From Prorocentrum cordatum (Eukaryota > Sar > Dinophyceae > Prorocentrales > Prorocentraceae), in assembly GCA_963575745.1 (NCBI GenBank), contig CAUYUJ010019882.1:669159-733158 (forward strand): 64,000 bases of DNA. Direction: 5' to 3'. Shown piece by piece: positions 6,799-50,073 of this stretch (position 1 is its first letter; each line of letters begins with the position of its first letter). The position numbers and the translations under genes are program-made. The notes under the pieces are model-generated. The model was given only the letters and a program-made list of their open reading frames with translations, had not been told where the DNA came from and did not search any database.

Positions 6799-6928
6799 TT
6801 AGTTGTTCGTCCTAAACGGTTGGACCCCGCCCTCCCCAGTCGGCTTGGGTTTTCCTCTCCCTGCTCCTGCCTCTGCTTGCCCTTCCCTTTCCCTCTCTCC
6901 CGCTCAAGCCTTCGGGGCTCAAAGCCCT
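6799..6928 (+). repeat. Split direct repeat A1 (left end)
   Basis: Begins TTAGTTGTTCGTCCTAAACG and ends AAAGCCCT. It matches A2 at 22011-22140 with 3 substitutions and no gap. It precedes ORF1 and probably contains the promoter or the start of the transcript. Confidence 0.95.
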
Positions 6929-6981
6929 GGAGCCGACTTCAGGAGGTCTGGGCGCCCGCGGCGCCCGGAAGCGTGCGTGCC

Positions 6982-9900
6982 ATGGCTGCCCGGCGCCCCG
7001 CGCTGGCAGGTGCGGCCCGCGGGCTGGCCGCGCTGGTCACCAGCGCCGCCGCCTACGACTGGCGCGGGCCCCTCAGCTCCGCTGTCGCCCGCGCCAGTTG
7101 GGGCCACCCGGCTGCGGCCCAGGAGGCCCCGTTCGGGTACACCGTGCCGTGCTACGACGACTCCGAGTACGGCACGGAGATCGGCGAGCCCGAGGAGGAG
7201 GGTGGAGATGCAGGCAGCCCCCAGGCGCCGCCCGACAGTGGGCCACCGGGAGCGCCGCCCCCGCCCCCAGCCCAGGCCGCCGGAGGAGTCGACAACAGCA
7301 GCGACCCCCCCAAGGACCCGGGCAGCGAGGAGTCTTGGGTGGGCGGCTGGGGTGTCTGGGCGCTGGGATTGAAGCCCCTACGTGCGGGCACCTGGGCCTG
7401 GCGCCTGAGTGGCATGGGCGGAGTCGCCTACGAGAAGCTCGACAGTCTTGGGAGTGCCTTCTCCACCCATGCCGAGACGGGCTGGCTGACCAAGGATGGT
7501 GGGTGGTTCTTCTATGCTCTCGAGAAGCTGGGCCTGACGGTCTTCGGGGCCGCTTGGCCTGCCGTGGCATGGACGTTCATCCTCTTGGCTTTCCTGGCAG
7601 TGCTGGCTTTCCTCACTCACATCTGTCGTACCCTGCTGGCCCCATGCGCAGCCGCCCTCTGGCTGATCGGTCTACTGGCGCGGTGCACTAAGTGCCGCCG
7701 GCGAGAGCCTGGCGATGCAGCTGCCGAAAGGTACCTGCCGCCGGCTCCGCCTGCCCTCACCCAGATCAATTGGATGGGGCCAGAGACCGGACCAGCCACG
7801 ACCACGGAGTACTACAGCAAGAAGGTGAAGGGTCGTGGGACTGGGAGGCGGCCTAACGATGTGCTGATCAAGATCGACGACCACGTGGCCCGGCTGAAGA
7901 TCGACCTTTCGGAGCCCAAGCGGATCGACCGGAAGGGACTCTGGGTAGACTACCTGGGCGTGAAGGGGGCCAGCTCACGCGCACTCCGTCAGAAACTGGA
8001 GTCGCTCGAGGGCCGTTCCATTCACCTGTGTCGCAACCTGGCCTGTAGAGATCAACCTGGAGAAGTTCATTGTAAAGAGTACGCTGCCTTGGACTCCGAG
8101 GCGATCGTGGACATCGGCTCCCACGCCAGGTTCACCTCCTGCCGGGGCGTCTTCTTGCTCTGGCGGACCGTCGCCGACCTGGGGAGAGCCATCTGGAAAG
8201 TGATCGTGTTCCTTTACTGCATCCTTTCCTGCGGTTGCTCCTTCTGCTGCCGGCGACGCCGCCGTCGCAAGACAGGCGCTGCGGAGCCAGGCGTTGCAGG
8301 GAGCATCGCAGAAGTTTTGGATCAGGAGTCAGAGTCGGAGGTGGAGGCCGAGGACAGGCCATGTGAAGCTGTTCGGGTGGGTATCGTTCTACGTGGCGGC
8401 GCTCGCCCCTTGGCACCCGACGGTTGCAGGGACGCCGCGGAGGCAGAGCCGACCACCCTGCTCTTCGAAGACGGGCAGGCTTCAGACCTCCCGCCACCCA
8501 GCGACGGGCGGAATTCGTTCGCCCATCTCTGCGCACATCATGCCCAGGTTTACCGAGCATCTCGATATCGTGACAAATGCTCGCAAGTGACTTGTTACCG
8601 CCAGGCAGTTGGCAACGCAGAGGGCGTACCACTATGTCTTCTTCATCTGGGTGGAGAAGCAGGTCGAGCAGTGCAGGCAGCTGCAGCCGCCCCGGGCCGC
8701 GGATTCCTCTCGAGCTTGGGCTTGCGGCGTCGGACGGTTCGCAGCCGCAGCCCACGGGCGCGCGAGCAGGGCGTCCCAGTCAACGCAGCTCCCCCCGCAG
8801 ACGGAGTACGGGGACCGGAGGGCCATCGCGGACACGCAGCCCTTGGGCAGCACCGACGAGAGGCATCAGCTTCGCCGCGAGGTCCGCCTGTTGGTGTCAG
8901 GTTCGAAGCGCCGCCTTCTCCGAGGGTGCCCCTCCCGCGAGACGCCAGCCCCGCCCCCGACGAGGAGATTGAGCAGGGTGACCCTCTCGTACTGCGTGTG
9001 CGAGTCCACTGGGCCGCCGGCCCACAATGGGTTATCTTCTTGGGGAAGTCCCGTCCAGGGGGAGGGCCCACCGGAGATGGCAGCACGACTGTAGTAGACG
9101 CGGAGGAGCCGCACTGCAAAGACTACTCGGCGGAAGGCCAGGAGAACGTCTGCTTCACCCTCAAGACCGCGGGGATCGAGTACGCCCCCGTCGCCAGCGA
9201 CCAGGGCAGGCTCCCCGCAGGCTACCTGGAGGAGCTCTTGTATCACCCACCACTCGGGGCCGAGGAGATGGGGATCGGTGTGCACGGCGTCGTCGTGAGC
9301 AGCACCCTGTGGGAGAAGCTACGTCCTTGGAACGGGGTCCCCGTCGGCGGGAAGACCAAGCGTATCGGCCGCCCTCAGTGGGCTCAGCTTCGGGCCCGCG
9401 GGGACTTGCTCGTGTACCGGCATCCAGCGGGCACCTCAGGTGATGCCCCCGGAGTACCGCAGCCCACCTCCGACGAGCTGGACGCGCAGCTCAAGAAGCA
9501 TTGGGCGAGGCTTGATCGCAGCAGTTCCCCCAAGCCCCCATTCGGCGTCGGGTGGGGCTTGGGCGAGGAGGGTGGTCTGGCCTCCTCAGCCCCTCGGCGC
9601 TCTTCACGCAGCCCAGCGGGGAAGGACCACGAAGAGGAGAACACCGGGGAGGCCATGCTGGGGCTGTACCTCGCCGCTCACGAAGAAGGATCGGACGACG
9701 CCTCCGCGCTGCAGAGCGTGGCGGCAGGATACGACGAGGACATCACCGTGGTCTTGGAGCATCTCATCAAGTACACCAAGCGTCTCATGCGCAGCAGCGG
9801 GACCGAGGAACGGACAAAGTACCAGGCGCACATCGACAGGTGGGAAAGAAAGTTGGAGCGGGTTCGAGCCGAAAAAGATGAAGGGGTGAACCCACCCCTC

Positions 9901-10329
9901 GCTAGTGGCCTCTTGAAGCTAGATACCGAGCGCAAGCCCGATGCCAGCCAAGAGCCCAGCCCACCTGGAGTTCCCCCTGGGCTGGACGCCGCCATGAGCG
10001 CTCCGCCATTGCCGCCGCCGGCTACCCCGCCTGGCGTGCGCGTGCCGGGAGCGACTCGTTTGTCTCCGCCAGGTTTGATGCCCGGCCTTGTACCGAATCT
10101 CGGCAGATGTTCACTAACAGGAGCGCTTATGGCCACGGAGGACTGGTTAAAACCCCGGGGCAGCCAGACCGTAGGTACGCCGCAGGAGCCGGAGAAGGTG
10201 AACCCTCAGCCGCTTTCTCCACCTACGCGCAAGTCCTCCAGAACGGTCAAGAACAGCAGCACCTGGACAACATGCGGCTGCTGCAGGCGGTGGACAGCCT
10301 CCGCAGGTCCGGCGAGGAAGAGAAAGTAG
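6982..10329 (+). CDS. Retrotransposon ORF1, membrane/Cys-rich protein
   Basis: 1115 residues from the first ATG (6982); the frame is open upstream into repeat A1 but without an ATG. The N-terminal part is Ala/Pro-rich with acidic patches. Residues about 175-240 (nt 7505-7700) form one or two hydrophobic membrane segments followed by a basic CTKCRRR stretch, and a second hydrophobic Cys-rich segment (FLYCILSCGCSFCC) lies near 8210-8250. Spaced Cys/His groups occur at 8030-8070 and 8520-8650 (AHLCAHHAQ...CYRQA...CLLHL). The last 220 bp overlap ORF2 in another frame. I recognise no named domain. Its position ahead of the Gag-like ORF suggests a structural or membrane-targeting role (inference); such a protein is not standard in DIRS elements. 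Confidence 0.75.
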   Translation: MAARRPALAGAARGLAALVTSAAAYDWRGPLSSAVARASWGHPAAAQEAPFGYTVPCYDDSEYGTEIGEPEEEGGDAGSPQAPPDSGPPGAPPPPPAQAAGGVDNSSDPPKDPGSEESWVGGWGVWALGLKPLRAGTWAWRLSGMGGVAYEKLDSLGSAFSTHAETGWLTKDGGWFFYALEKLGLTVFGAAWPAVAWTFILLAFLAVLAFLTHICRTLLAPCAAALWLIGLLARCTKCRRREPGDAAAERYLPPAPPALTQINWMGPETGPATTTEYYSKKVKGRGTGRRPNDVLIKIDDHVARLKIDLSEPKRIDRKGLWVDYLGVKGASSRALRQKLESLEGRSIHLCRNLACRDQPGEVHCKEYAALDSEAIVDIGSHARFTSCRGVFLLWRTVADLGRAIWKVIVFLYCILSCGCSFCCRRRRRRKTGAAEPGVAGSIAEVLDQESESEVEAEDRPCEAVRVGIVLRGGARPLAPDGCRDAAEAEPTTLLFEDGQASDLPPPSDGRNSFAHLCAHHAQVYRASRYRDKCSQVTCYRQAVGNAEGVPLCLLHLGGEAGRAVQAAAAAPGRGFLSSLGLRRRTVRSRSPRAREQGVPVNAAPPADGVRGPEGHRGHAALGQHRREASASPRGPPVGVRFEAPPSPRVPLPRDASPAPDEEIEQGDPLVLRVRVHWAAGPQWVIFLGKSRPGGGPTGDGSTTVVDAEEPHCKDYSAEGQENVCFTLKTAGIEYAPVASDQGRLPAGYLEELLYHPPLGAEEMGIGVHGVVVSSTLWEKLRPWNGVPVGGKTKRIGRPQWAQLRARGDLLVYRHPAGTSGDAPGVPQPTSDELDAQLKKHWARLDRSSSPKPPFGVGWGLGEEGGLASSAPRRSSRSPAGKDHEEENTGEAMLGLYLAAHEEGSDDASALQSVAAGYDEDITVVLEHLIKYTKRLMRSSGTEERTKYQAHIDRWERKLERVRAEKDEGVNPPLASGLLKLDTERKPDASQEPSPPGVPPGLDAAMSAPPLPPPATPPGVRVPGATRLSPPGLMPGLVPNLGRCSLTGALMATEDWLKPRGSQTVGTPQEPEKVNPQPLSPPTRKSSRTVKNSSTWTTCGCCRRWTASAGPARKRK

Positions 10330-13300
10330 CGCAGCGGGGCACCCTCGGCGCCATCGGACGGGCCGAGGAGCTGGACGTGTACCTGGCGCGGGGCTGCGAC
10401 ACCCTCGACGTAGAGGTCTGCGGTACCCTGACCGGGCGGGAGTTGTTCCATGGCCTCAAGCGCGCCTGCGAGCACGCGAAGCACGCGATGCAGGCGGTGA
10501 ACTGGCCGACGACGGTGACGAACAGGATGGCGCACGGCATCGCCGCCTTCTGTTGGGGGGGGCGGGACCACAAGGATCTGGCCGAGTGGTCGATCTCCGT
10601 GGCTGATTTTCCCCATTGCAAAGCAGAGGTGTTCGACGCCTACACCATGCCCACCACGTGCAAGCTCGAGCCGCGCCCCCGGCACCCGGTCGTCTTCTCT
10701 CAGTGGGTAAGGCAGGCCGAGAACGCCATCACCGTCTTCGGGCTGGTCTACGGGCGGATGCACGAGCCCGAGCGACGCCGAGCCCTGGAGACCCTCCGCC
10801 TTGCCTACGAGGAGGACGACGTGGCCTTCCCAGCAGACTATGTGTACAGCCTTTGGGAGGAGCTTGCTGCAACCTGGTGCGAGCAGCTTCGGGAAAAGCG
10901 AAGGGAGGTGTGCCGCATCCTGGGGCTCACCAACCCGCGCCGGGAGGACATCAAAACCATCGCCCTCGCCCCTGCAGGACCGTCTGGGAGCGCGTGGCTG
11001 ACATTCCCGAACGTGTACGACCTCGACGCACCGGACGGGTACTACCAGGTGGTGTGCGTCCCTCGCCAGGCCCGGCGGCTGCAGAGGTTCCTTCATCAGA
11101 ACCTCCACGCCGGCCCCTCGAGGACCCCCAAGGCTGGGAAGGCTGACGAACACGCCCCAGCAGATCAGGAGGCGCCCACCGGAGCTGGCCCAGGCACTGG
11201 AAAGGCAGGGGCCGCAGTCAAGAAGGCTGCTGCTAAGAAGCGGCCCGCCGCTCGGGCGTACCCAGCAGGGAAGGCGCTGACGTCCAGCGAGATCGGGCGC
11301 TCAGTTAAGCATGCCCCCCGGGACAAGAACGGGAAGGTCATCTGCTGGGACGCCTGTACCTGGGCTGGCTGCCCCAAGGCGGCAGGGACTTGCGCCCACT
11401 CCCACGAGGCCATCAAGGGGCTTGGCAGCCTGGACTGGACCGTGCAGGCGCAGCTCATCAGGCGCGGCGGCCTGAAGTCTGGCGCTAAGGTCGACCCCGC
11501 CTCGGTCGACGGGCGGGTGGCTCAGCTCAGGGCCCAGGCCAAGGCCGAAGCAGACAGCAAAAGAGCTGGGGGAGGCGCCGGAGAAGGTCCCGGGGCCCCT
11601 GCGGGGGGCAGCCGAGCGGGAGGCTCGCCGGCTGTTTGGTCCCCCCCAGCTGCCTTCGACGAGATTCAGACCACCGCCCTCGAGGAGGAGCTCAGGCAAG
11701 CCGTCCAGGGCCCCGAGGAGGACTGGTTGCTGGACGCCCACGCCAACGCGCCCGCGGTGGAGGGGGCCAGTGAGACGACTCATCCCGCTGCTCTCGAAAG
11801 ATGGAACATCATCGAGAAGATCCTGGAGAGCGGGACCATCGCGACGCTGGGCGACATCAGCGACTACCTGCATTCACACGCCCTGGCCAGGCTTGCACGT
11901 GCCAGCTCAGAAGGCATCTCCCTGAGCTTGGAGGAAGTATTGCTGGAGGCGACTCGGGACGGGGGGCCAACCCTCGCCGAGGAAGCCGGTCGGGCCCTCG
12001 ACAGGCTGGGATCAAAGGCGGCGAGGAGCAGCACTCAGGACCTCAGTATTGGAGGAGCCTCCTGGGACGAGGAGGCTGGAGTTGGCCGCGGGAAGCTCAC
12101 GGTGCAAGACCAAGAATGGGACTATCTCGACTTCCAGGACGAGCTTCAGCCCGACGAAGAGATGAGAACCCGGCTCGGCCTCAAGGAAGGCGACGCAGAG
12201 CTCAGGCAGTGTCTGGTGCTCCACATCGCGGCCGCCCTGCTTTGGGGGGATAAGGAGCCTGATGCGCCGGCCGTGAAGGCCCTGGCTGCTCAGCTCCGCC
12301 GCGAGTTGTGGGATGGAGCCACCACCGCCTCCGCCGCATTGGGGGATGCACCTCCCTTCGTCTCACCACGTGAAGCCGAGCTCCGGATGCACTGCCATGA
12401 TGTCCAGCACCCGCACCACGACAAGGACTTCAGGTGCATCTCGGTATTCCCCCTGAGTGCCCTCAACACAACCACCGTCCGGGTCTGGAGGATCAACCAC
12501 TGGAACCAGCTCGAGATCGACTCCGTCCTGCCGACGCAGACCAGCGAGAGGGAAGTCCACGTCATGATCCACCGAGGGCACATGCGGGTGCTCAAGCCAC
12601 CGGTCATCGGCGGCCAGAGTCCCAACAAGCGAGGCCGGGCATTTGGGGAGATCCTCAAGACCTGGACGCTAGCTGGGAAACCCGTCCGCGACCTACTCAC
12701 AGTCGGCTGGGAGATGTACCTGGAGTCAGAGGAGGTCGCGGGGCCCGTGATCCCGAGCCGGCCCCCGCCCTGCCTGCACTGCAAACGTATGCAGCAGGCT
12801 CAGCTCCCAACGCGGGAGGGCGCAGTCGGGAACCAGGAGCTCGAGGAGGAGGACTTCTCCGGCCTCGCACCGCTCCTGCGCAGACCCGCCTTCGCGTGGG
12901 GCATCCGCACTCGCGAGATCTTCGCAGGGACAGGGAACTGGACCAAGGCGATGCGAGAAGCTGGACTCCAGACGGCCCCATCTGTCGAGTATTTCCAGGA
13001 CCCCCTGGCCCAGACCGGGCCCCAGGAGGAGCACGACATCCTCGATCCCCAAGTGCGAGAGAGGCTCCTCCTCGACGCGGGGGCAGCGCCAGGCCCCGAC
13101 GAGGCGAACGTCTACCAGTTGGCCCCCCCGTGCACAACCCACTCAGCCTGGTGCCTCAAGAACGGCGGGACCCGCACGTTTGAGCACCCGGACGGCGACG
13201 GGGCGGTCCAGGCGGAGATCGACAGCAACATCATGACCGACTTCGCCGCCGACCTCTGCGAGCGCCTCGACGCCAACGATCGAGAGTGGATGCTCGAGAA

Positions 13301-14810
13301 CACGGCCAGCGATGGACGCTACCCGAAGATCTGGGACAGGGCCAGGATCAAGCAGCTGCAGAAGCGCACAGGAGCACGGATTATCTCCGTCGCCATGTGC
13401 GAGTGGGGGCTAGGGCCCCCAGAGGAGCCTGCGAAACGGCACCGCAAGCTGACGTTCTGGATGGTCTCGAAGGGCCTCTACCCCTGGGCGCTCTCTCTGG
13501 CGAGGCGCTGCACCAACCAGCACGAACACGTCGCCCTGGAGGGGCCTCTCCCCTACGACCTGACCCAGGCCCAGATCGACCACTACAACTCCTCCAAGCT
13601 CTCGCTCAGTCAGCCCGAGCAGAAGGACATCCTGAGCCTGACCAATCGACTAGCCCTGGCAGGCGCGCAGGCTCAGGGTCTCGCCGCAGATACCAAGACC
13701 CTGGAAACCCCACAGCTCGGACCCGAGCTGCTGCGCCCACTGAACGACCTCGTCGGCAAGCTGGGGCCCGTGAACTTCCACTGGAGCCGGGTCGAACCAC
13801 GCACCGGGAAGGCCTTCGAGGACCTCCCGGAGGGCGCCGTGGCCTTGTACTACGGACGTGATCGAGCCAACAGTTTCGTGGCCAAGATCTCACACCGGTC
13901 GCCCCCGTGCCTGCGCGGGGGCGGGCGCGTCCTCAGCGGAGCTCCCCCACTGGCCAAGGCACTGCGGGAGGAGTTGAGCATTCTCGGCTTCCAGGTCGGT
14001 CAGCGTGGACTACGTCGCACCCGCTACGCCGGCCAGTACCCGACGAGGCTGTGCGCTGCCTGGGCCGAGGTCGTCAAGGCCGCGGGAGCGGGGACCTCCC
14101 CCGCGAAGCTCCTGAAGAAGCTTGAGCCCATCGTCACGACGAGGGCCGGAGACAAAATGGCGGCGGGAGCCGGCGACGGGGTTCACCTGGCGGAACCCCC
14201 CCCTCCTTTTCGCATCTTGGACGGGCCAGTCACGGAGAAGGAGGCGGAGGAAGACCATCCAGCTGAGCTCAGAGGATGGCAATGCGCGAACAGAGGCAAG
14301 AAGAGAGGAGGGTGGAAACGCAACAAGGCGAGAAAGAGGGATCCCGACCGAGGAGCACCACCACCGGGCCCTGGAGGAGATGGCGGAGACGACGAACCTG
14401 GGGGAGACGAAGGAGAAGGAGAGGAGGAAGAGGAAGAGAAGGAGCCGCCCAGGAGGGTCAAGAAGTCCAGGCAAGCCGAGCAGCAAGCCGATGAGCCAGT
14501 CAGGGTGATCCTTCCACAGCGTGGGGATCGATGGATACCAATCCCGGGGGGCCCCATGTACGCGCACGAGCCAGAGCGTCCTCATAACCTGCAGATGGCT
14601 GCGCGACGACGTCCTCAGCCCCGAGGAGCTTCGCCTGTTCGTCTACACCGACGAGGGGGACACCGCAGGAGCCGAGGGACCTCCCTTAGAAGACGACGAT
14701 CGTGTCGAGCCCGGGGAACGCCTAATCCTGTGGATCGGGAAAGAGGACATCGGGAACTGGGCAGCCTGGGCGCCGCGCTGGATCAAGAGGGCCGCGGACG
14801 AGGAGCGTGA
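10107..14810 (+). CDS. Retrotransposon ORF2, Gag-like + zinc finger + MTase-like lobe
   Basis: 1567 residues from an ATG at 10107, in the -1 frame relative to ORF1. Residues about 50-340 are helical and charged as in Gag proteins. A CCCH-like cluster follows (C417, C422, C429, H433). Residues about 930-1135 look like the catalytic lobe of a C5 cytosine methyltransferase: motif I REIFAGTGNW (F939-G943), motif IV QLAPPCTTHS with the candidate nucleophile C1009, motif VI MLENTAS (E1064, N1065), and a late MCEWGLGPPEEPAKRHRKLT block. Motifs IX/X are not present here. The C-terminus is acidic/basic low complexity. The last part (after about 14590) looks out of frame, and the coding signal moves to ORF3. 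Confidence 0.8.
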   Translation: MFTNRSAYGHGGLVKTPGQPDRRYAAGAGEGEPSAAFSTYAQVLQNGQEQQHLDNMRLLQAVDSLRRSGEEEKVAQRGTLGAIGRAEELDVYLARGCDTLDVEVCGTLTGRELFHGLKRACEHAKHAMQAVNWPTTVTNRMAHGIAAFCWGGRDHKDLAEWSISVADFPHCKAEVFDAYTMPTTCKLEPRPRHPVVFSQWVRQAENAITVFGLVYGRMHEPERRRALETLRLAYEEDDVAFPADYVYSLWEELAATWCEQLREKRREVCRILGLTNPRREDIKTIALAPAGPSGSAWLTFPNVYDLDAPDGYYQVVCVPRQARRLQRFLHQNLHAGPSRTPKAGKADEHAPADQEAPTGAGPGTGKAGAAVKKAAAKKRPAARAYPAGKALTSSEIGRSVKHAPRDKNGKVICWDACTWAGCPKAAGTCAHSHEAIKGLGSLDWTVQAQLIRRGGLKSGAKVDPASVDGRVAQLRAQAKAEADSKRAGGGAGEGPGAPAGGSRAGGSPAVWSPPAAFDEIQTTALEEELRQAVQGPEEDWLLDAHANAPAVEGASETTHPAALERWNIIEKILESGTIATLGDISDYLHSHALARLARASSEGISLSLEEVLLEATRDGGPTLAEEAGRALDRLGSKAARSSTQDLSIGGASWDEEAGVGRGKLTVQDQEWDYLDFQDELQPDEEMRTRLGLKEGDAELRQCLVLHIAAALLWGDKEPDAPAVKALAAQLRRELWDGATTASAALGDAPPFVSPREAELRMHCHDVQHPHHDKDFRCISVFPLSALNTTTVRVWRINHWNQLEIDSVLPTQTSEREVHVMIHRGHMRVLKPPVIGGQSPNKRGRAFGEILKTWTLAGKPVRDLLTVGWEMYLESEEVAGPVIPSRPPPCLHCKRMQQAQLPTREGAVGNQELEEEDFSGLAPLLRRPAFAWGIRTREIFAGTGNWTKAMREAGLQTAPSVEYFQDPLAQTGPQEEHDILDPQVRERLLLDAGAAPGPDEANVYQLAPPCTTHSAWCLKNGGTRTFEHPDGDGAVQAEIDSNIMTDFAADLCERLDANDREWMLENTASDGRYPKIWDRARIKQLQKRTGARIISVAMCEWGLGPPEEPAKRHRKLTFWMVSKGLYPWALSLARRCTNQHEHVALEGPLPYDLTQAQIDHYNSSKLSLSQPEQKDILSLTNRLALAGAQAQGLAADTKTLETPQLGPELLRPLNDLVGKLGPVNFHWSRVEPRTGKAFEDLPEGAVALYYGRDRANSFVAKISHRSPPCLRGGGRVLSGAPPLAKALREELSILGFQVGQRGLRRTRYAGQYPTRLCAAWAEVVKAAGAGTSPAKLLKKLEPIVTTRAGDKMAAGAGDGVHLAEPPPPFRILDGPVTEKEAEEDHPAELRGWQCANRGKKRGGWKRNKARKRDPDRGAPPPGPGGDGGDDEPGGDEGEGEEEEEEKEPPRRVKKSRQAEQQADEPVRVILPQRGDRWIPIPGGPMYAHEPERPHNLQMAARRRPQPRGASPVRLHRRGGHRRSRGTSLRRRRSCRARGTPNPVDRERGHRELGSLGAALDQEGRGRGA
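14521..14810 (+). other. ORF2/ORF3 overlap, candidate +1 frameshift zone
   Basis: ORF2 (codon starts divisible by 3) and ORF3 (remainder 1) overlap here. Protein-like composition moves from ORF2 to ORF3 near 14590. A homopolymeric GGGGGG-CCCC stretch lies at about 14548-14557. The ORF1/ORF2 overlap at 10107-10329 needs a -1 shift or internal initiation. Confidence 0.5.
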
Positions 14811-17800
14811 GGAGGCGCCGTGGCACCGCAGCGAGGCCACCCCCGCATCCCACCGCAGCGTCACGCTGAGGATCGCCGACCGCGTCAGCTCCCAGGGCTT
14901 TGGCAGCCCAGAGCTCGGCGCTGTCTGGAACAGGCGGGCCCCCCCGCCGCACTCAGGAGGGAGGCGTTTCCAGCAGGCTGCCGCCCAAGCCCTCCAGAGA
15001 CAAAGCCGCGAGGCGCCCGCTGGAGGGTCCAGCAGCGGAGGCAGCTCAGCCGACAGCATCAAGCTGGAGAGCATAAGGAGGAAGCTCGAAGCTGCCAAGG
15101 CCGCCGAGGTAGGTGTCCTGGAGGAGGAGGAGAAGCGCATCAAGGAGCTGCAAATACAGCTGGCAGAGGCTAAGGAGCGCCGTCGGGCCCGTCGTGCGAG
15201 GGATGCCGGCAAGCGCGAAGCAGAGCAAGCGCGAGCCGGGCATCCCCGCCGGGCCAGCTCAGAACCCCCCAGCGGGCAAGGCGCGGCCACCCCTCTCGAT
15301 CCAGCCTGGGAGGACGAGACCCCGCTGCCCTCAGCCATCCTGGATGGGGAGAACAAGTGCCACGAAGCGGAGTGCATCTTGAATAACCTGCTCGGGGTTC
15401 CAGCTGACGATCCCACGGGACCTGATCGGAGGAGGAGAGCGCGGGAGCTCCTGATCGAGGGCATCAGCTCCATGTTCGAGGACCTACCGCGGAGCTGGAC
15501 CGGCACCCCCTACGAGGAGCAAGGCGAGATCGCGAGCGAGTACGTTGACATCCTCGAGAAGCTGACCCGCAAGATGGTGAAAGCAGGGGAGCTGGACGAC
15601 ACCCCCGCAAAGAAGCGCCGGAGAATTGTTTACGAGAAGGCGGAGGAGGAACCCACGAGCGACGACGAGGACGCCGACGAGAGCTCAGAAGACGAGGTGG
15701 TGGAGAAGCCGTACGCGAGGACCGAGGAGGGAATAGACCCCCCCCTCCCAGAGGGTCCAGATCCCCTGAGCCTCTGGCCCGGGCAAGCGGAGGCGGCCAG
15801 GCGGAGCAGGGAGGAGACTCTCCAGAGCTCTCCTGGGGCCAGCGGCAGCGGAGGCCCCGCCCCCGCCGCAGGCGCAGAGCTACCGCCGAGTGCACCTCCA
15901 CCGCCCGAGGTACTGGAGACTCCCTCAGACCCAGCCCAGCATCGGAAGAGCAGACTCCCCGCCACGATCCCCCAGAAAGCCGCACCAACGAGGAGAAGCC
16001 GCTCGGCCATGACAGTCGTGGAAGCAGCCAGGCGTGCCGCAGGCAGGTCGACGACCTCCAGCGGAGACCCCCCCACTGGGGGGGCCGACGCCGGCAGCGC
16101 AGGGACGTCCGGAGAAAAGCTCACACTCAGGCCCAAGCCGAGATCACTGGGTGCCCAGCTGCGCGCCACCTCCAAGGGAAAGCCATCGCAGCCCAGACCC
16201 CGCCAAGATGATCCAGCCAGGCCGCTCGTGCCCCCGGATCACGCAGTCAGGCCCCTGGTGAGACCTCCAGGGTGGCGCCCGCTTCTCCCTGGGCAACTCG
16301 CCCGGCCGCCGGGGATGCCGCCGATGATGCCGCCCCCTTGGCCATCCCCTCCGCGGGGAGGCCGCTGTGGAGGACCCCCTTTAGGGGAGGCGCCGGCGGC
16401 GCCGAGCGGTGGGAGGGCACAGGAGGAGGCGCGCGACTACGTCAAGTGGTGCGCGGACCACCCCACCTTCCAGCCCGAGAAGGTGCCAGAGGTCGTGAAG
16501 CGGGGCAACTCACTCCTCCGCCTCGCCGGCAGCATCGAGAGGGCTGCCGAGTTGCTGAAGCACGCGCGGGAGGAGGTCCATGGGAACCCGCTGGGCGGAG
16601 TACTTCAAGAAGACGTGCAGAAGTCCTTGGACCCGCACCACGCCGCCTACCTCCGGGCTATGGCCACCGGGGGAGTACCCGTGCGACGCACGGAGGAGCG
16701 GACGCGCACGCAGGCCAAGTCGCACTCCTCGGCGGTGGACCACGCGCTGGAGATGTTCGAGAAGGCCTGGAAGGACAGCCGCTACGGCGTTGTCCTCTGG
16801 GCCTCGGACGAGGTCGAGGACGTGCTCGCCGCCTCGGCACTGGTCGAGTCGCCCAGCGGGAGGGTCCCCAAAATGTTGCCGGATCGGACCATCTCGAAAG
16901 AGGGCCGGCCGATCCACGACATGCGGGCGGCCAACGCCTTCTCCCCGAAGGAGCAGCACCCGCCAGCGAAGCAGCCCCTCCACAGGGGGCTTGCGAGGCT
17001 CAGCCTCTGGTGGGGGGCGAGGCACCCGGGCGTCCAGCAGGTGGTGGCGAAGCGCGACGTGGCCAGGGCCTTCAAGTGGCACCACCTGGAGCCAGCTGCC
17101 GTGCCAGAGTTCGGGACGACGCTCCCGGGCAAGGAGGTCGGGGTGCCAGGGCGAGTTATCCTGATCCACGGCGTGCTGGTCTTCGGCTGGGCCGGCAGCC
17201 CGGGCGAGTACATGGCGTTCGCCTGGGCGGCCAAGAGCGAGCACGAGAGGAGGAAGCCGCCGGCGCCCAGGATCAACGATACCGTCAGGTACGCCTCCAA
17301 GTGGCTCATGGACGACGGGGTCGTCCTCGAGCCGCGGGTGGGCCTCCGACCCTGGCTCTCGGCCGAGGAGCTCGACGGGGCCATGAAGCGAGTCTGGGGC
17401 CCGGACGCAGTTAACGAGGAGAAGCTGGACGTCGAGGGGGAGTTCGCGGCAGAACAGTTGATCTGGGGCCTCCTCATGAATTTCGACACGAAGGTGGTCA
17501 GGCTCCCAGAACCCAAATGCATCAAAGCTCAGTACCTGCTCGCCCTCCCGGAGCTCAGGGGATCCAGGCGGGTCCCGCTGAAGGTCGCCCAAGAGCTGCG
17601 AGGCTGTGCCCAGTTCTGGGCGTCAGCACAGCCAGCACTCCGCCCCGAGCTTCCCGCCCTGGACCGACTCCTCAGCAGCGGGACGAGCTGGGCAGAACCG
17701 AAGGGTACGCCTGAGGAAGTCGAGCTCGCCTGGGAGGAGTGGGACGCGTCAGTGGGGTTTCTGAGGATGCTCTTCGATGTCCCGGAGGCCTGGAGCACGA

Positions 17801-20800
17801 CCTTCCAGGCCAGCTTCACGCAGGCCCTGTCGGTGCGCGAACGCCTAGCCTTGCCAGGGACAGCACGTACCACAAGGTGGACGGGCGGAGACGCTACCAC
17901 CTCCTCGATCGGTGCCATCGACTGGGGGAGCGCGACTGCAGGGGAGGCCGCGCCGACGCCAGAGTACATGGCCACGGACGCCGGACCACTGCCCGAGGCC
18001 CTGAGTCACGCGGTCAGAGGCGAGAGTGGCGAGGAAGGCTGGATCATAGCGGTGGTCGAGCTGCTGGCGGTGGTCGCGTTGGCCACGAAGCAGGGCTCGA
18101 AGTGGGAAGGCGAGCCGGTATTTTACGTCACGGACAACCAGAATGTGAAGGCCTGGCTCACCAAGAGAAGCCCCAAGAACGCCCTGGCCCGCCACCTGAT
18201 ACGTCTGGTGGAAAGGATCGAAGCCATGCACGGATGCCGCATCGTCTCGTTCTTCGTGAGGACCTACCATAATGAAGTGGCCGACTGGCTTACCCGCGAA
18301 GAGGTCAAGAAGGTTCACGACACGCTGGCCACCTCAGGGTGGACGCGCCTAGAGCCTCCCGCAGCCTGGGGCCAGATACTGGAGGACGCCAAGGAGCGCC
18401 TTCTCAGGCTCCCTGGAGAGACGGGCCCCGTGGCCGAGGCTGCCCTTCGACACCGAGCACTTCAGCGAGGACATGGACTGCCGAGAGCTCTCCCGCTCCG
18501 CGGGAAGCTGGGTCGAGAAGTGGGGAGCCTTATCAACCCGTACACGAAGGCCTTCAAGCGCCTCGGGGGATCGGAGCCCGAGGAGAACCAGAAGGTGGGA
18601 TGGCTCATGGCGTCGCTGTCCCTGGACCCCAAGGGCCGAGAGATGGAGGCTTTCCTCGTCGCAGCAACTCAGGAGAGCCCTGAAGTGGTGGTCGTGGATG
18701 CCCCAACCGGGGTCGACACAGCCAGGTTCGAGAAGGCACTTAAGCAGCTGGGCTACATGGTCTCGAAGTTCGAAGTGGTCTGCACGCACCACGGGGACGC
18801 CACGACGAGGACCAGGCGGGTGCTCGTGGGCGGACGTCGGAAAGCTGGGGTGGGCCTGGCGTGCATTAACATGCCGCCGGCCTGCTCCCGAGCTGCCAGC
18901 GTCAAGCCCCTCCTGGACCAGGGAAAGGACCACCTGTGGCTCGACCAACAAGGCGAGGTGTCATGGGACCCCCGCATCCAGTCCACCAGCGACCCCCTCC
19001 TCCTCAAGCCGGTCGGGCACCTCAAGAAGGATGGAGCGAAGCACCTGATCTACAGCGAGGAGGGGCCGGTGGGCACGATCCGCTGGCCCGGGGCGGAGCT
19101 CCAAGGACCCGGGGCGACGCTCCTCCGTGTCACCGGAGGGGGCGGAGGCACGGTCCGCGCCCTGACGCCCCAAGAGGTTTGGCGAGCGCAGGGAGGGACC
19201 AACGACGAGTGGACCCACTTGCGAGCCCAGGGCTTCACCGAGGACGAACTCCTCAAGGGCGCCGCCAGGGCGCTCCCGCCGAGGACCGCAGAGGCAGTGC
19301 TGACCGCGGTGACAGAGGCTCTCGACAGCACCAGCACTCAGCGGGCCGGGGTGCGCCATGACCCAGAGGAGCAAGCTGCGCGGGAGGCCACCAAGCGCTG
19401 GTTCCGCGCCTGGGCCCAGGCACCAGATCAGCCCGCCTTGGCACTGGCAGCAGAGGACGAGGCGAGGGCCGGAGGAGCGCTCACCGACGAGATGCACAAG
19501 AACCGCCGGCGCGCCCAAGCAGTCCGCTTCAAGATGATCGACGAGGACACGCTCATCGGGCCCCGGGAGGCCCCAGCCGCCGAGAAGGTCAAGCTGGATA
19601 AAAGTGTGACACGCTCGAAAAGTCCTCGCAAAAAGAGCCCTCGGCGTGCCAAAGGGATGCCAGCCACCGACTTGGTGAGGCCGCAAGCGCTGGGCGTGGC
19701 TCGGAAGACCAACTACCCCGGGAAGGAGCTCGCCCCCGCCGGCCGCGCTGAGCCTGGCGGAGCCAACTACGCCGGCTGGTTCGCGCAGCAGAAGATGGAG
19801 GCCATGCTGCAGAAACTCAGTGAAGGCACAAGGGCGGGTTACGAGGGGGGATGGCGGCTCTGGGTTGCCGTGCGCCAGGCGCAGGGGCTCAGCCCTTGGC
19901 TCCCAGGACGTGATCGCGAGGAGCGCCTGGCCGACGAAGAGGCGCTCATCAACTTCGCCGTCCTCTTAGCGCGGGTCGTCGGGAGGACCGAGGGGACCAT
20001 CAAGCAGAAGCTCTTCGCGGTGCGCTACGCCCACCTGGTGGCTGGCTATTCGGACCCCCTGCTCCACAGAGGCCGCCTCTGGAGCACGCTGGCAGGGCTG
20101 AAACGCTGGCAGGGGCCCGAGACCAAGCGGAAGAAGCCCGTCACGCCAGCCATGCTCGAATGGCTCCGCAGCTTTCTCCAGCAGGAGGCCAAGCTCCCCG
20201 AGGAGGATGCCGTGGTCATCTGGGCGGCCATCGTGACAGCGTTTTTCTTCCTCCTGAGGGCCTCAGAGTACCTCCTCCAGGACGGGCGCTCATGGTCCTT
20301 CGAGCGCGTGCTGCACGGCGAGGACGTGGAGCCCAAGGAGGGGAGGCGCGTGGCCAGCTTCCAGGACGCCGACGAGATGGTGATCTACATCAAGGGCAGC
20401 AAGACGGACCAGCTCAACGTCGGGACGGTGAGGAACCACTACCGCGCCGGCACATCGCTCTGCCCGATCGCGGCGATGGAGCGGCTCCAGGCTCACCATC
20501 CTCAGCGGATAAAGGGCACCGAGGAACGGCTGCCCCTTTTCCGCTGGGCGTCGGGTACACCGATCCGCAGGGCGGAGGTGCAGCACTTCCTGACGGTCGC
20601 GGGGCTGGCCGCCGGCCTCTCCGGGGAAGAGATCGGCAGCCACTCCCTGAGGATCGGCGGGGCAACTGCAATGTACCACGTGAACGAGGACCTCTCCCGA
20701 GTGCGCCGATTCGGGCGCTGGCAGTCGGACGCGTTCCACGGCTACCTGTGGGAGTCGCACGAGCCGATGAAGGGCATCTCCGGCAAGATGGCCAGGGACA

Positions 20801-20886
20801 ACTCCTCGTTGACCAACCCGGCGAAGGACAGCGCCCCCAGCAGAGCTGCCGCCGGCGCCGAGAGCGCCAGGCGCGAGAGCCCATGA
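14521..20886 (+). CDS. Retrotransposon ORF3, RT-RNase H-MTase-like-tyrosine recombinase
   Basis: Up to 2121 residues; numbering is from the GTG at 14521. There is no nearby ATG, so synthesis by +1 frameshifting from ORF2 is likely (a GGGGGGCCCC run lies at 14548). Residues 1-700 are charged low complexity with a coiled-coil stretch. RT: motif A KRDVARAFKWH (D846), motif B FGWAGSPGEY, motif C LMDDG (D931, D932). RNase H: D1134, E1180, TDN (D1205), NEVADW (D1255). Residues about 1385-1570 resemble the C-terminal half of a C5 methyltransferase (TRTRRVLVGGRR, RALTPQEVWRAQG). The C-terminal tyrosine recombinase has R1913, K1958, H2041-x-x-R2044 and the nucleophile Y2075 (FHGYLWES). This would copy the element RNA and insert the circle into the genome. 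Confidence 0.9.
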   Translation: MGIDGYQSRGAPCTRTSQSVLITCRWLRDDVLSPEELRLFVYTDEGDTAGAEGPPLEDDDRVEPGERLILWIGKEDIGNWAAWAPRWIKRAADEEREEAPWHRSEATPASHRSVTLRIADRVSSQGFGSPELGAVWNRRAPPPHSGGRRFQQAAAQALQRQSREAPAGGSSSGGSSADSIKLESIRRKLEAAKAAEVGVLEEEEKRIKELQIQLAEAKERRRARRARDAGKREAEQARAGHPRRASSEPPSGQGAATPLDPAWEDETPLPSAILDGENKCHEAECILNNLLGVPADDPTGPDRRRRARELLIEGISSMFEDLPRSWTGTPYEEQGEIASEYVDILEKLTRKMVKAGELDDTPAKKRRRIVYEKAEEEPTSDDEDADESSEDEVVEKPYARTEEGIDPPLPEGPDPLSLWPGQAEAARRSREETLQSSPGASGSGGPAPAAGAELPPSAPPPPEVLETPSDPAQHRKSRLPATIPQKAAPTRRSRSAMTVVEAARRAAGRSTTSSGDPPTGGADAGSAGTSGEKLTLRPKPRSLGAQLRATSKGKPSQPRPRQDDPARPLVPPDHAVRPLVRPPGWRPLLPGQLARPPGMPPMMPPPWPSPPRGGRCGGPPLGEAPAAPSGGRAQEEARDYVKWCADHPTFQPEKVPEVVKRGNSLLRLAGSIERAAELLKHAREEVHGNPLGGVLQEDVQKSLDPHHAAYLRAMATGGVPVRRTEERTRTQAKSHSSAVDHALEMFEKAWKDSRYGVVLWASDEVEDVLAASALVESPSGRVPKMLPDRTISKEGRPIHDMRAANAFSPKEQHPPAKQPLHRGLARLSLWWGARHPGVQQVVAKRDVARAFKWHHLEPAAVPEFGTTLPGKEVGVPGRVILIHGVLVFGWAGSPGEYMAFAWAAKSEHERRKPPAPRINDTVRYASKWLMDDGVVLEPRVGLRPWLSAEELDGAMKRVWGPDAVNEEKLDVEGEFAAEQLIWGLLMNFDTKVVRLPEPKCIKAQYLLALPELRGSRRVPLKVAQELRGCAQFWASAQPALRPELPALDRLLSSGTSWAEPKGTPEEVELAWEEWDASVGFLRMLFDVPEAWSTTFQASFTQALSVRERLALPGTARTTRWTGGDATTSSIGAIDWGSATAGEAAPTPEYMATDAGPLPEALSHAVRGESGEEGWIIAVVELLAVVALATKQGSKWEGEPVFYVTDNQNVKAWLTKRSPKNALARHLIRLVERIEAMHGCRIVSFFVRTYHNEVADWLTREEVKKVHDTLATSGWTRLEPPAAWGQILEDAKERLLRLPGETGPVAEAALRHRALQRGHGLPRALPLRGKLGREVGSLINPYTKAFKRLGGSEPEENQKVGWLMASLSLDPKGREMEAFLVAATQESPEVVVVDAPTGVDTARFEKALKQLGYMVSKFEVVCTHHGDATTRTRRVLVGGRRKAGVGLACINMPPACSRAASVKPLLDQGKDHLWLDQQGEVSWDPRIQSTSDPLLLKPVGHLKKDGAKHLIYSEEGPVGTIRWPGAELQGPGATLLRVTGGGGGTVRALTPQEVWRAQGGTNDEWTHLRAQGFTEDELLKGAARALPPRTAEAVLTAVTEALDSTSTQRAGVRHDPEEQAAREATKRWFRAWAQAPDQPALALAAEDEARAGGALTDEMHKNRRRAQAVRFKMIDEDTLIGPREAPAAEKVKLDKSVTRSKSPRKKSPRRAKGMPATDLVRPQALGVARKTNYPGKELAPAGRAEPGGANYAGWFAQQKMEAMLQKLSEGTRAGYEGGWRLWVAVRQAQGLSPWLPGRDREERLADEEALINFAVLLARVVGRTEGTIKQKLFAVRYAHLVAGYSDPLLHRGRLWSTLAGLKRWQGPETKRKKPVTPAMLEWLRSFLQQEAKLPEEDAVVIWAAIVTAFFFLLRASEYLLQDGRSWSFERVLHGEDVEPKEGRRVASFQDADEMVIYIKGSKTDQLNVGTVRNHYRAGTSLCPIAAMERLQAHHPQRIKGTEERLPLFRWASGTPIRRAEVQHFLTVAGLAAGLSGEEIGSHSLRIGGATAMYHVNEDLSRVRRFGRWQSDAFHGYLWESHEPMKGISGKMARDNSSLTNPAKDSAPSRAAAGAESARRESP

Positions 20887-21782
20887 GAGGCCGCAGCGGG
20901 CGCCGCCGGTACTTACGCACCTGGCGTGCGCCCAACCCAAGCCGCCGGCTTCACGCCGTGCGTGCTTGGGCGCAGCCACCAGCCACCTGCCCCGCCGGCG
21001 AGTAGCCGCGCGCTCGCAGGGTACACCCGCCCGTGCTTTCCAGCACTGGCTAATACCTCACGGCAAAAACATGCTGCGGGTCCGTCCATCAGGGCCCCAC
21101 TAGTGCCTGGGATACTGTGGGTCCCCTTGCAGCCCTGGACGAGGATCACACTGGAACCCGCCTGGCACGCCGGCTCTCTATACCAAGCCTGGGCGTGCCA
21201 GGCATACTGGCGCCAGCTGTGCTACAGTAGCTGGCAATCTGACGGCCCGGGTGGCCGCAGCGCTCGAATTCACGCGCAGGCGCGGGCCCGCACCCCAGCG
21301 CCGGCCCGGGGAACCCCCTCTGTCAGGGGCCGGACCCTGCCCGCCCCGTGCACTTTGGGCACTTGTGGAGGCGGGGAGCCGGGAGATCTGGAGGCCGCGG
21401 CGCAGACGGGGACGCCAAGTGCCGGCCCGCGCCAAGCGCCAGCGGCAACACCCTCGGGCCTCAGCCCGAGGTCGGGCTCCGCCGGCAATCAAGGTACCGG
21501 CGCGAGCCCAAGGCCTAGCCTCACGGAGGACAGCCGCGCACGCCGGCATCAGTTGCCTGGCGGCAGTCGGCAGACAGAGGGCCAGTCGGGCCCTCACACG
21601 CGCGCCGGCGCACACGCCAGGCGATGCGTGACTCAGTGCCTAGACGGTGCCGGCAACACAACGCCTGGCACCCAGTTTTGGCGACGCCCATCAGGGCGCC
21701 CACACAGCACGCCGGCGCGTAGAACCCGCCAGGCGGCCAGTGTGCGGGGGCACTGGCAGCAGCACCCGTATTATAGAACAAA
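20887..21782 (+). other. Element 3' non-coding region
   Basis: About 0.9 kb, GC-rich, rich in GCCGGC and CCTGGC words with local inverted repeats (TGCGCCCAA near 20930 with TTGGGCGCA near 20966). No ORF with protein character. Likely the 3' untranslated part of the element transcript. Confidence 0.55.
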
Positions 21783-22010
21783 GGCGGCGTAGCCCGCTTC
21801 GCGTGGCGGAAGGAGGGACCCGCCTGGCGTGTCACCGCCGGCGGGAGGAGCGTGCGGCCAGCGCAGCAGCAAAATGGGGGGGGGCTGCACCGCTGCCGCC
21901 ATCATCGTCATCGTCTCCTGAGGGCCCGCCTCAACCGCTTCGCGGCTGGCACGTCCCGCGGCCTTAAAGCAGGCCGCGTTTCGCTAGCGCCGCACTGTGG
22001 GGGCGGGGTC
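21783..22010 (+). repeat. Split direct repeat B1
   Basis: Starts GGCGGCGTAGCCCGCTTCGC and ends GGGGGCGGGGTC. It aligns with B2 (22208-22436) almost perfectly, with one extra T in B2 (GTTTTCGC versus GTTTCGC). It runs directly into A2. Confidence 0.95.
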
Positions 22011-22140
22011 TTAGTTGTTTGTCCTAAACGGTTGGACCCCGCCCTCCCCAGTCGGCTTGGGTTTTCCTCTCCCTGCCCCTGCCTCTGCTTGCCCTTCCCT
22101 TTCCCTCTCTCCCGCTCAAGCCTTCGGGGCTCGAAGCCCT
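22011..22140 (+). repeat. Split direct repeat A2
   Basis: Internal copy of the left end. The B1/A2 boundary (GGGGTC then TTAGTTG) is what joining the right and left ends of the element into a circle would produce. Confidence 0.95.
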
Positions 22141-22207
22141 CCCAGGGCCCAAAGGGGCCCTCTTTTGCCCACCCACCCTGGGCTTTGCCTCGGTGTCATA
22201 CGGCACC

Positions 22208-22436
22208 GGCGGCGTAGCCCGCTTCGCGTGGCGGAAGGAGGGACCCGCCTGGCGTGTCACCGCCGGCGGGAGGAGCGTGCGGCCAGCGCAGCAGCAAAAT
22301 GGGAGGGGGCTGCACCGCTGCCGCCATCATCGTCATCGTCTCCTGAGGGCCCGCCTCAACCGCTTCGCGGCTGGCACGTCCCGCGGCCTTAAAGCAGGCC
22401 GCGTTTTCGCTAGCGCCGTACTGTGGGGGCGGGGTC
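22208..22436 (+). repeat. Split direct repeat B2 (right end)
   Basis: The last base of the element is the C of GGGGTC at 22436, followed immediately by GGAGGAGGAGG. A 67-bp unique linker (22141-22207) separates it from A2. Confidence 0.95.
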
Positions 22437-22621
22437 GGAGGAGGAGGAAAGGGGGAGGAGGAATAGGAGGAGGGAGGAGGGGGAGGAGGAGAGGGAGGAG
22501 GAGTGGGGGCTCTCGCCGAAGGTCCGCCGTCCGCGCGAAATCGATTCGCGCGAAAACTGCGGGCCGTTCGAAAGAAATCCGCTGAGCGCGCGCGCGAAAA
22601 GAACCCACGGCATCCCAGAAG
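22437..22621. other. GGA tract and linker
   Basis: GGA-rich DNA to about 22503, then a GC-rich linker containing the palindrome CGCGCGAAATCGATTCGCGCG (near 22535) leading into the first, most diverged satellite unit. Confidence 0.6.
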
Positions 22622-26970: not shown

Positions 26971-28513
26971 CTACCCTAAGATTGACGTGCTCAGAAAGGG
27001 AACATGCAAGGAGGGATCGTGTACCCTTTTTTTGGCCTTCTTGGGTGTTACGAAATCGTCTTGCCATTTATCGAATACAGGCTGGTTGATAATCACCACG
27101 GCGATCAAGCTGCGAATAAGCACTCTCTCCATCACGTTGACTGAAAAACTATTCCCCAGCATTTTACCGAATTGTGAGTTGGAAATCCCGTCGAGGTTCA
27201 GCTCGCTGTAGTTGAAGCCCTGAAGCCCAGCCATGATGACCGGCCCCATCATGCGGCCATATTTCAGCAGAAAGAAGCCACCTAGTAGAGGTGGGCTCTT
27301 CTCCTCCTCCTCCTCTTCCTCCTCATCCTCCTCCCCCCCATCATCCCCCCAAACCCTGGAACGTTTTTCTCCCAAAACAATGCCCCAAGATAGGGAAGGT
27401 TGCGAGTTCGATCGCTGGGCCAAGGCCATCCGAATATTTCAATATCAGGGGGGAAAGGGGAACGGGCGGTGGAACGAACAGTGGGGTTGATGCATGTGAT
27501 GAGATGCTTTTCATGCAAGCTGACCTTGAGCCCCTCGGCTCGCTGTAATGCAGGGGCTGTACCCGACAGTGTGGGTGTGGAAGTCCTTCGACGCGTGGAT
27601 GTCCACGCACGCATTCAGGTCAAACGGGTTCAAGCCCTGGCCGATCAGCTTCTTAGTGGTAGCGAAAAGCGCAGCGCGAGCAGTCTTATGCATGGTGTGC
27701 ACATATTGCGACAGCGGCTTGATGTGCAGGCCTGACGTAAACGCGCCAAAGTTCAAGGAGGGCACCGGCTCAGGCCAGGAGAACTCGTTGGCGATGTTGG
27801 CAACAGCTAAATCAACGATGTAGATGCGGGTCCGGCTGTGGGGCAGTCCATTCTCCAAGGTGTTGAGGCGTTGGACCGAGATTTGGTAGTGCTGCTTGCC
27901 ACGGCTGTCCTTGATGCCAGCAAGCTGGGAAAACAAAAGGCGCGTGAATGCCTCAAAGCGTTTGGTCATCAACCCTCCAACGTTCTCTAACACAAAGATC
28001 TTAGGCTTATGCAGCCTGATGTAGCTTATCATTTTGAATGCTATCAACCCGCGCCCTCGAGAATCCTTGGGGCGCTCCTTCTCGCCCAAGAGACTAAACG
28101 GTTGGCAGCTAAAGCCACCGGCGTAGACGTCAACTTCAGCCATGATGCGCGGTGAGCGCTCTTCGATATTATCATAGAGCGAAACAACATCGGGCCAGTT
28201 CTGATTGATGAATCTCATCCCACTCGGTCGCGAACTCGTGCTGCACCGAAACACCAATCGATTTCAAAGAAAACATCTCGGTGCACATTCCTGAACATTC
28301 TGACCCAACGCGTACGACCACATCTGTCAATGCATTCCTGCTCTTGCGCATGTTGGCTGCCCATGTCTTGCTGTAAGATGTCCGGTATTTGGTCTGGGCC
28401 AGTGGCTGGCGCGCCGCGGCCATGGGCGCAGCTGCGGGTCGGCGTTTCACCGTGGGCATTGGTGGCATGCTGGGTGCCGCGGCCGGTCGGCGCCTCAACT
28501 TTGACGCTGGCAT
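26971..28513 (-). CDS. C5 cytosine DNA methyltransferase (one frameshift)
   Basis: Transfers a methyl group to C5 of cytosine in DNA. About 430 residues. The start ATG at 28513 is followed by an Ala/Pro/Arg-rich tail (MPASKLRRRPAAAP). Motif I is VGSECSGMCTEMFSL. An extra base near 28216 (after HEFATEWD) shifts the frame, which resumes with RFINQNWPDVV; motif IV GGFSCQPFS has the catalytic Cys codon at 28105-28107; motif VI FVLENVGG; motif VIII GLPHSRTRIYIV. A 243-nt GT-AG intron (27524-27282; CAAG|GTCAGC, CTAG|GTGGC) restores GAQGGFFLLKYGRMM, followed by motif IX/X (LQGFNYSELN, MLGNSFSVNVMERVL). All catalytic motifs are intact, so the frameshift is either a recent lesion or a sequence error. 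A spliced-leader-like relict lies just upstream. Confidence 0.85.
27282..27524 (-). other. Intron of methyltransferase gene (GT-AG)
   Basis: Phase-1 intron, donor AAG|GTCAGC, acceptor ACTAG|G. It contains a CCT-rich block on plus (GA-rich in the sense strand). Removing it joins two conserved methyltransferase blocks without a gap. Confidence 0.8.
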
Positions 28514-49896: not shown

Positions 49897-50073
49897 TCGC
49901 ACTGGGATAATGTCATATCCTCTTATATATAGAATGTGTATATACACGCGTGCATAAACGCGAATGGGCATAAATGCATGGCACGGCAGTCGGAGGAAAA
50001 GAGAGGCGCAGTGGGGAGGGGTGGAAGGAGGACGCCAAGCACCCAAGCACCCTGCTACGTCTAGGTAAGCAGA
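49897..50073 (+). repeat. Array-flanking sequence F, copy 2
   Basis: Inverted relative to 25466-25600: here AGCACCCAAGCACCCTGCTA leads to CGTCTAG|GTAAGCAGA and then the satellite. TATATA/CGCGTG words at 49920-49960 correspond to TATATAGTACATG near 25585. Confidence 0.8.

Follow-up and report, generated by a model that had tools for sequence, protein, structure and literature searches.

Anatomy and coding regions of the element

The 64,000-nucleotide stretch of Prorocentrum cordatum DNA analyzed here (positions 669,159 to 733,158 of contig CAUYUJ010019882.1, assembly GCA_963575745.1), referred to as the window, contains on its + strand, at 6799-22436, a 15,638-bp element bounded by split direct repeats. 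We regard it as highly probable that this 15.6-kb copy belongs to a high-copy, recently mobile family of DIRS-order tyrosine-recombinase retrotransposons with PAT-like repeats, and that the family encodes one polyprotein of ~4,700 codons and would cycle through a circle; a methylation step by one of its methyltransferase-derived domains, MTase1, is a proposal. The order of parts in the polyprotein is a membrane-like segment with a zinc-type motif, a gag-like region with a zinc finger, MTase1, reverse transcriptase (RT), RNase H, MTase2, and a tyrosine recombinase.

Repeat comparison places A1 at the left end of the element (6799-6928) and B1 (21783-22010), A2 (22011-22140) and B2 (22208-22436) at the right, with B2 forming the right end; this A1-...-B1A2B2 arrangement is of the PAT/Ngaro type. 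A1 and A2 differ at 3 of 130 positions, and B1 and B2 by two substitutions and one gap. A first-pass annotation, made from the sequence alone, had placed all four repeats exact to the base, its A1-A2 count agrees with our recount, and the large size that it remarked upon is borne out. B1 and A2 adjoin directly, and A2 and B2 are separated by a 67-nt linker (22141-22207) in which inspection reveals a GC hairpin followed by CTTTT. We note the resemblance of this hairpin and CTTTT to a terminator or a signal for 3'-end formation. On both sides the window copy is bordered by a polypurine (GGA)n array.

A 10-bp inverted repeat, GGGCGGGGTC/GACCCCGCCC, spans 22001-22044 (arms at 22001-22010 and 22035-22044), with its left arm terminating at the B1/A2 joint, and is the proposed recombination site at the circle junction. 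Arms of this length were attained in 4 of 2000 base shuffles of the joint stretch, and also in 6 of 259 further 120-nt segments taken elsewhere in the element. The joint core GGGGTCTTAGTT is exact in 17 of the 20 other copies described below, the remaining three being truncated upstream of it. The 3' untranslated region (20887-21782) is predicted to be strongly structured (folding z -4.89, with 0 of 20 shuffles equally stable); by eye, it contains many GCCGGC and GCCTGGC/GCCAGGC motifs.

Three open frames cover the coding region of the window copy (6799-10326, 9906-14807 and 14509-20883, with overlaps of 424 and 302 nt), all on the + strand. The first open reading frame, ORF1, read from its first ATG at 6982 (context GTGCCATGG) to 10326, is the N-terminal part of the polyprotein; ORF2 (9906-14807, first ATG at 10107) contains the gag-like region followed by MTase1; and ORF3, which with its stop extends over 14509-20886, carries RT, RNase H, MTase2 and the recombinase, as judged from the list of open frames and from relatives.

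Two hydrophobic segments (7561-7617 and 8170-8226; hydropathy 2.47 and 1.68) and, by motif inspection, a C-x2-H...C...C...C-x2-H motif (8530-8646) lie in ORF1, and a strong hydrophobic segment (2.11) and the Cys/His motif recur in P0003, a protein model from Durusdinium; the N-terminus is thus predicted to combine a membrane-like segment with a zinc-type motif. A CCCH-like zinc-finger-type motif lies at 11355-11405, in the gag-like region of ORF2. As a side observation, the Pfam accession PF26692 is precomputed on relatives P0003, P0004, P0006-P0008 and P0012-P0014, apparently in the part corresponding to the gag-like region, and was absent when P0003, P0007 and P0012 were scanned with Pfam in this analysis.

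The putative RT core (16870-17590) has motifs A (KxDVxxAFK), B (FGWxxSPGEY) and C (MDD, at 17308-17316), which are recognizable in six aligned sequences, and motif C is kept in all five other copies that were read over the coding length (C14686, C13644, C4355, C16034 and C3335). The RT profile has no match in Pfam or the PDB, and a structural model of ORF3 residues 690-1637 is poor overall (predicted template modelling score 0.42), the RT palm included, so that only the RNase H part was used; there, an RNase H fold is seen at 17866-18321, after RT as in the DIRS order. The recombinase (19684-20883, R..HxxR..Y) matches PF00589 at E 0.0017, below the cut-off of that family, and its R, H and Y residues are invariant in nine aligned sequences, namely the window copy and eight relatives. 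Two relatives carry further domains: P0007, from EukProt, has a Tpt1/KptA RNA 2'-phosphotransferase domain (residues 1985-2150, E 1.5e-23) between its MTase2-like region and recombinase, either a captured domain or a gene-model fusion, and P0010, from ENA, has a NUDIX domain (residues 1738-1843, E 1.8e-8) in an RT-RNase H-C5-methylase protein.

Copies, insertion sites and selection

The host assembly (4,128,499,153 bases in 21,875 contigs) was searched with a 400-aa recombinase query, and only the best of 2,531 first-look candidates were scored, so that the copy number is a lower bound: at least 104 scored matches are present, the window copy counted, at 91-100% identity, and the query region is without a stop in 93 of the 104. 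For the 20 best other copies we compared 3-kb right stretches (n = 20) and 3.9-kb left stretches (n = 19, one contig-cut). The right end falls exactly at window base 22436 in 17 of the 20, the other three departing from the element at 20965, 21494 and 21962, and the left end falls exactly at 6799 in 12 of the 19; of the other seven, three are without a match, one is contig-cut, one is internal, and two start at 6904 and 8134. Both ends given by the first-pass annotation thus recur in most of the copies, and no alternative set of ends was found, the non-agreeing stretches being truncated, interrupted, contig-cut or without a match.

Beyond these common ends the flanking sequence varies between sites. 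Among the 10 other copies with both ends, the only flank similarities in the sequence available are a partial repeat of the C13469 right flank, located more than 400 nt from its joint, and a duplicate pair, C4559 and C14686, whose 600-nt right flanks are identical and which differ by one mismatch and one gap in 3,000 nt. This pair is one insertion counted twice, and the 17 of 20 right ends accordingly become 16 of 19 separate ones; since the two also differ in their open frames (1,558 and 4,696 codons, respectively), assembly effects contribute both to the copy counts and to the frame breaks. The left and right flanks have no base in common in 9 of the 11 both-ended copies (window copy included), and match over 4 nt in C15102 and 12 nt in the window copy, the latter because of its (GGA)n setting. 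Insertion thus occurs without a regular target-site duplication, and the combination of constant ends, differing flanks and no common flank bases is the pattern of tyrosine-recombinase insertion. No empty site was found: none of the available sequence stretches joins the left and right flanks of any of these 10 other copies.

The repeats within each copy have diverged little: A1 and A2 differ at 17 of 1,432 sites (mean 1.19%, 11 copies), and B1 and B2 at 66 of 4,100 sites (mean 1.61%, 18 copies), which indicates that the spread has been recent, as the first-pass annotation had supposed. Its assignment to the DIRS/PAT-type class likewise holds, given the split direct repeats, the tyrosine recombinase in place of a DDE integrase, the RNase H and the lack of a target duplication, and the dinoflagellate host that it suggested agrees with the named relatives, Durusdinium and Polarella.

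Circle formation followed by recombinase insertion is the model for elements with split direct repeats, and what we observe here are its products. By that model, RT/RNase H would copy an RNA spanning from within A1 to B2, the terminal bases lacking from it would be restored from the internal B1-A2 copy to yield a circle carrying one B-A joint, and the recombinase would cut this joint, the candidate crossover site, and insert the circle into arbitrary DNA, leaving no target duplication.

The ratio of nonsynonymous to synonymous substitution rates (dN/dS) was estimated over six copies (15 pairs), namely the window copy and the five others read over the coding length, with stop codons skipped; the copies are few and related. 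The values are 0.14 for ORF1, 0.10 for the gag/Zn region (10335-12860), 0.08 for MTase1, 0.20 for the end of ORF2, 0.16 for the start of ORF3, 0.12 for RT-RNase H, 0.14 for MTase2 and 0.17 for the recombinase, and out-of-frame patches would, if anything, push dN up. Stops occur in some of the projected domains: in ORF1 and again in gag/Zn, three in C3335 and one in C16034; at the start of ORF3, one in C16034; in MTase2, one in C3335; and in RT-RNase H, two in C13644, two in C4355 and seven in C3335. At the end of ORF2 the frame of the window copy meets a stop in each of the five others. None of the tested domains looks free of constraint (dN/dS 0.08-0.20).

Methyltransferase-derived domains and comparison with described elements

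MTase1 (12864-13562, +) is identified, by fold comparison and invariant residues, as a catalytic lobe derived from a C5-cytosine methyltransferase and located upstream of RT, with the motifs FAGTG, PPCT and ENT. The predicted structure has the catalytic-lobe fold with the motif IV Cys and motif VI Glu, and these two catalytic residues are the only invariant columns among 22 aligned sequences and are kept in all five other copies. Profiles of MTase1 gave no sequence match in the PDB, so the assignment rests on the fold comparison together with the invariant residues. Neither a target-recognition domain nor motifs IX-X were recognized by eye in ORF2 after MTase1.

MTase2 (18538-19419, +; ORF3 residues 1344-1637) lies between RNase H and the recombinase and has neither a recognizable motif I nor a catalytic Cys. 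With a seven-sequence profile, 12 of the 13 PDB matches at E<=1 are C5-methyltransferases representing five different enzymes (E 0.12-0.6), including six HhaI entries whose aligned rows cover residues 95-284 or 102-284; HhaI residues 95-284 we take to include the recognition part. A five-sequence profile has HhaI as its best match (E 0.039), with 3 of 7 matches being C5-methyltransferases, and a long RT-to-MTase2 profile has two PDB matches, both C5-methyltransferases (E 0.18-0.19). At the MTase2 position of P0010, which has RT-RNase H in a like order, PF00145 is matched at E 0.00036 and 20.5 bits, under the 22-bit cut-off. From these profile matches, MTase2 is probably a degenerate C5-methyltransferase that retains the recognition part. 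PF00145 itself is matched at E<=10 by none of six MTase1 and none of five MTase2 sequences, and hhalign comparisons of MTase1 with P0010, and of MTase2 with the PF00145-bearing ORF elsewhere in the window, gave nothing convincing. That ORF, at 27514-28263 on the - strand, scores strongly for a C5-cytosine methylase domain (PF00145, E 4.3e-21) and may belong to a separate LINE-type DNMT retrotransposon; RVT_1 is matched at 6.3e-10 in one other of the 71 window ORFs scanned.

In the proposed cycle, the complementary DNA (cDNA) or the circle would be methylated by MTase1, with MTase2 probably serving as an inactive partner. DNMT3L is known to help DNMT3A. A more specific version, which we offer tentatively and consider rather doubtful, is that of a divided C5-methyltransferase, in which an active catalytic lobe upstream of RT and a dead, recognition-bearing lobe after RNase H, both needed, might fold round RT/RNase H and mark the cDNA circle before insertion, with the N-terminus tethering the complex to a membrane. 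Weighing against any methylation step is the slight extent, at most, of CpG decay: transitions among copies occur at 0.056 for CpG sites and 0.040 for other C/G sites (1.4x), with 0.087 for A/T sites, and there is no strong mark of methylation decay.

This small mutational signature, the lack of catalytic motifs in MTase2, and the report of a catalytically inactive methylase in one DIRS1 group (as described in PMC3537659) speak for both domains being role-less junk inherited in the polyprotein. We consider that improbable, however, as MTase1 and MTase2 have dN/dS values similar to that of RT-RNase H and the catalytic Cys and Glu are the sole invariant columns of the MTase1 alignment. With dN/dS this low for both, experiments on the isolated domains could test whether such domains act upon the cDNA of their own element.

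The closest published element is SymbioDIRS-Dnmt3 of Symbiodinium (de Mendoza et al. 2018, PMC5890265), which as described there also has A-coding-B-A-B repeats, RT/RNase H with an RT poorly detected by Pfam, a tyrosine recombinase, a cytosine methyltransferase and dinoflagellate hosts; methylation of the cDNA was proposed by the same authors (PMC5890265). The shared layout, host and methyltransferase would fit the P. cordatum element being another of that kind, but we think this unlikely. The published elements, in the account available, were found via PF00145 and have a Pfam-detectable Dnmt3 in Pol and a separate recombinase ORF (PMC5890265), whereas here no PF00145 domain is detected in Pol, a Pfam-invisible catalytic lobe lies upstream of RT, a degenerate second domain follows RNase H, and the recombinase is in-frame with RT. 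The single ~4,700-codon frame in two copies and the N-terminal membrane-like segment further set it apart from the published description. Membership of the Dnmt3-type SymbioDIRS as it stands is rejected on the lack of PF00145, the differing domain order and the joining of the recombinase frame to RT.

Other members of the order share parts of the plan. PAT elements (Pat1-like, Toc and Kangaroo, as described in PMC4157794) have split direct repeats, a zinc-finger gag (Pat1-like), a methyltransferase and a recombinase; a methyltransferase after RNase H characterizes this subgroup, and the domain at that position here looks C5-type and degenerate, whereas DIRS-class methyltransferases are described in PMC5890265 as Dam-like adenine types. 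Ngaro, ~6 kb in Cafeteria (PMC8547959), has A1-[ORFs]-B1A2B2 repeats, RT/RNase H and a recombinase, and unlike the P. cordatum element is described as being without a methyltransferase-like domain (in the relevant text of PMC9210276). The ALOG-type DIRS1 of Ectocarpus, slightly >9 kb as reported in PMC3537659, is similar in having RT-RNase H, an inactive methylase, a recombinase and a predicted transmembrane protein near the 5' end, and differs in its adenine-type methylase, its ALOG domain, its separate 5' ORFs and its smaller size. DIRS-like elements of Xenopus are given as 4,146-6,224 bp (PMC9210276), as against 15.6 kb here. Recombinase-integrating retrotransposons can thus be as long as 15.6 kb, with one frame of ~4,700 codons, and yet spread to ~100 or more copies.

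No description of this element was found by term searches of an open-access library, subscription papers and Repbase being outside the search, and the P. cordatum genome paper (PMC10666404), in the available part of its main text, contains none of 'retrotransposon', 'DIRS' or 'LTR'. In dinoflagellates, methylase-bearing retrotransposons have been reported together with an unusual CG methylation that covers most of the genome (in the account of PMC5890265), and the present family would represent a second, Pfam-invisible route by which their retrotransposons bear cytosine-methyltransferase domains; an MTase1 profile would permit a recount of such elements across dinoflagellate genomes. The element is real and was correctly bounded and classed, so that the original observation is confirmed, and its interpretation is partly supported: the class and ends were right, the intact three-ORF layout was not, and the two C5-methyltransferase-derived domains, the membrane-like N-terminal segment and the copy number had been missed.

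Reading frames and the surrounding sequence

Among the 104 matches, two copies, C14686 and C13644, have a single open frame of 4,696 and 4,692 codons, respectively, which begins a short way within A1 and ends at the stop of the recombinase (two overlapping stretches were read for each). Of the other copies, C4355 has frame breaks near 9.1-9.2 kb and C16034 near 12.3-12.5 kb (window numbering), and C3335 is broken in several places, one of them within the first break zone of the window copy. That zone, the ORF1/ORF2 overlap (9906-10329), is longer by 1 nt in four of the five other copies and by 3 nt in C3335, and the second, the ORF2/ORF3 overlap (14509-14810), is longer by 2 nt in all five. 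The second break is thus private to the window copy among the six, and the first is common in place only with C3335. The Durusdinium trenchii model P0003 (3,520 aa) is colinear with ORF1, ORF2 and ORF3 (identity of 30% over 788 aa of ORF1, 31-47% for ORF2 and 37-38% for ORF3), which points to one polyprotein, although a predicted model can bridge frames. Judged from these sequences, the family is predicted to encode one polyprotein of ~4,700 codons.

The window copy as assembled is not intact, being either frame-broken or mis-assembled, and its breaks may be assembly errors, since C4559 and C14686, one insertion, differ in their open frames. The description of an apparently intact element with three ORFs is therefore rejected: single-frame copies exist, and the breaks are mostly absent elsewhere. 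It is very unlikely that the window element truly makes three proteins by ribosomal frameshifting in the manner of DIRS overlapping ORFs. Such overlaps are frequent in DIRS (according to PMC9210276), those of the window copy are substantial at 424 and 302 nt, and C3335 likewise changes frame in the first zone; against this, C14686 and C13644 each have one open frame, the first break is absent from four of five copies and the second from all five, the first overlap is without an in-frame X XXY YYZ heptamer, and the second would require a +1 shift. We dismiss the idea of host genes between chance repeats, or of an assembly artefact, for which the two frame breaks and the duplication of one insertion across some contigs might be cited, as it is contradicted by ~100 near-identical copies on different contigs, common ends in most of the 20 copies examined, and low dN/dS.

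Scans of two contig collections yielded no relatives: in viral contigs, ORF3 gave no pattern match, an alignment gave 40 pattern-matching stretches, none of them a relative, and the joint pattern gave none, and in genome contigs none of 76 pattern-matching stretches is a relative. In the window, scans against Rfam and for tRNAs returned nothing, and the dinoflagellate spliced-leader motif is absent at <=3 mismatches. A 101-bp tandem satellite, whose unit contains the inverted repeat GGGAACCACGATTT...AAATCGTGGTTCCC, forms two arrays, one just beside the element (22603-25465) and one at 50070-51958, and an 11-bp repeat, TAGCTTTAGCT, also forms two, at 30950-31369 and 49462-49844.

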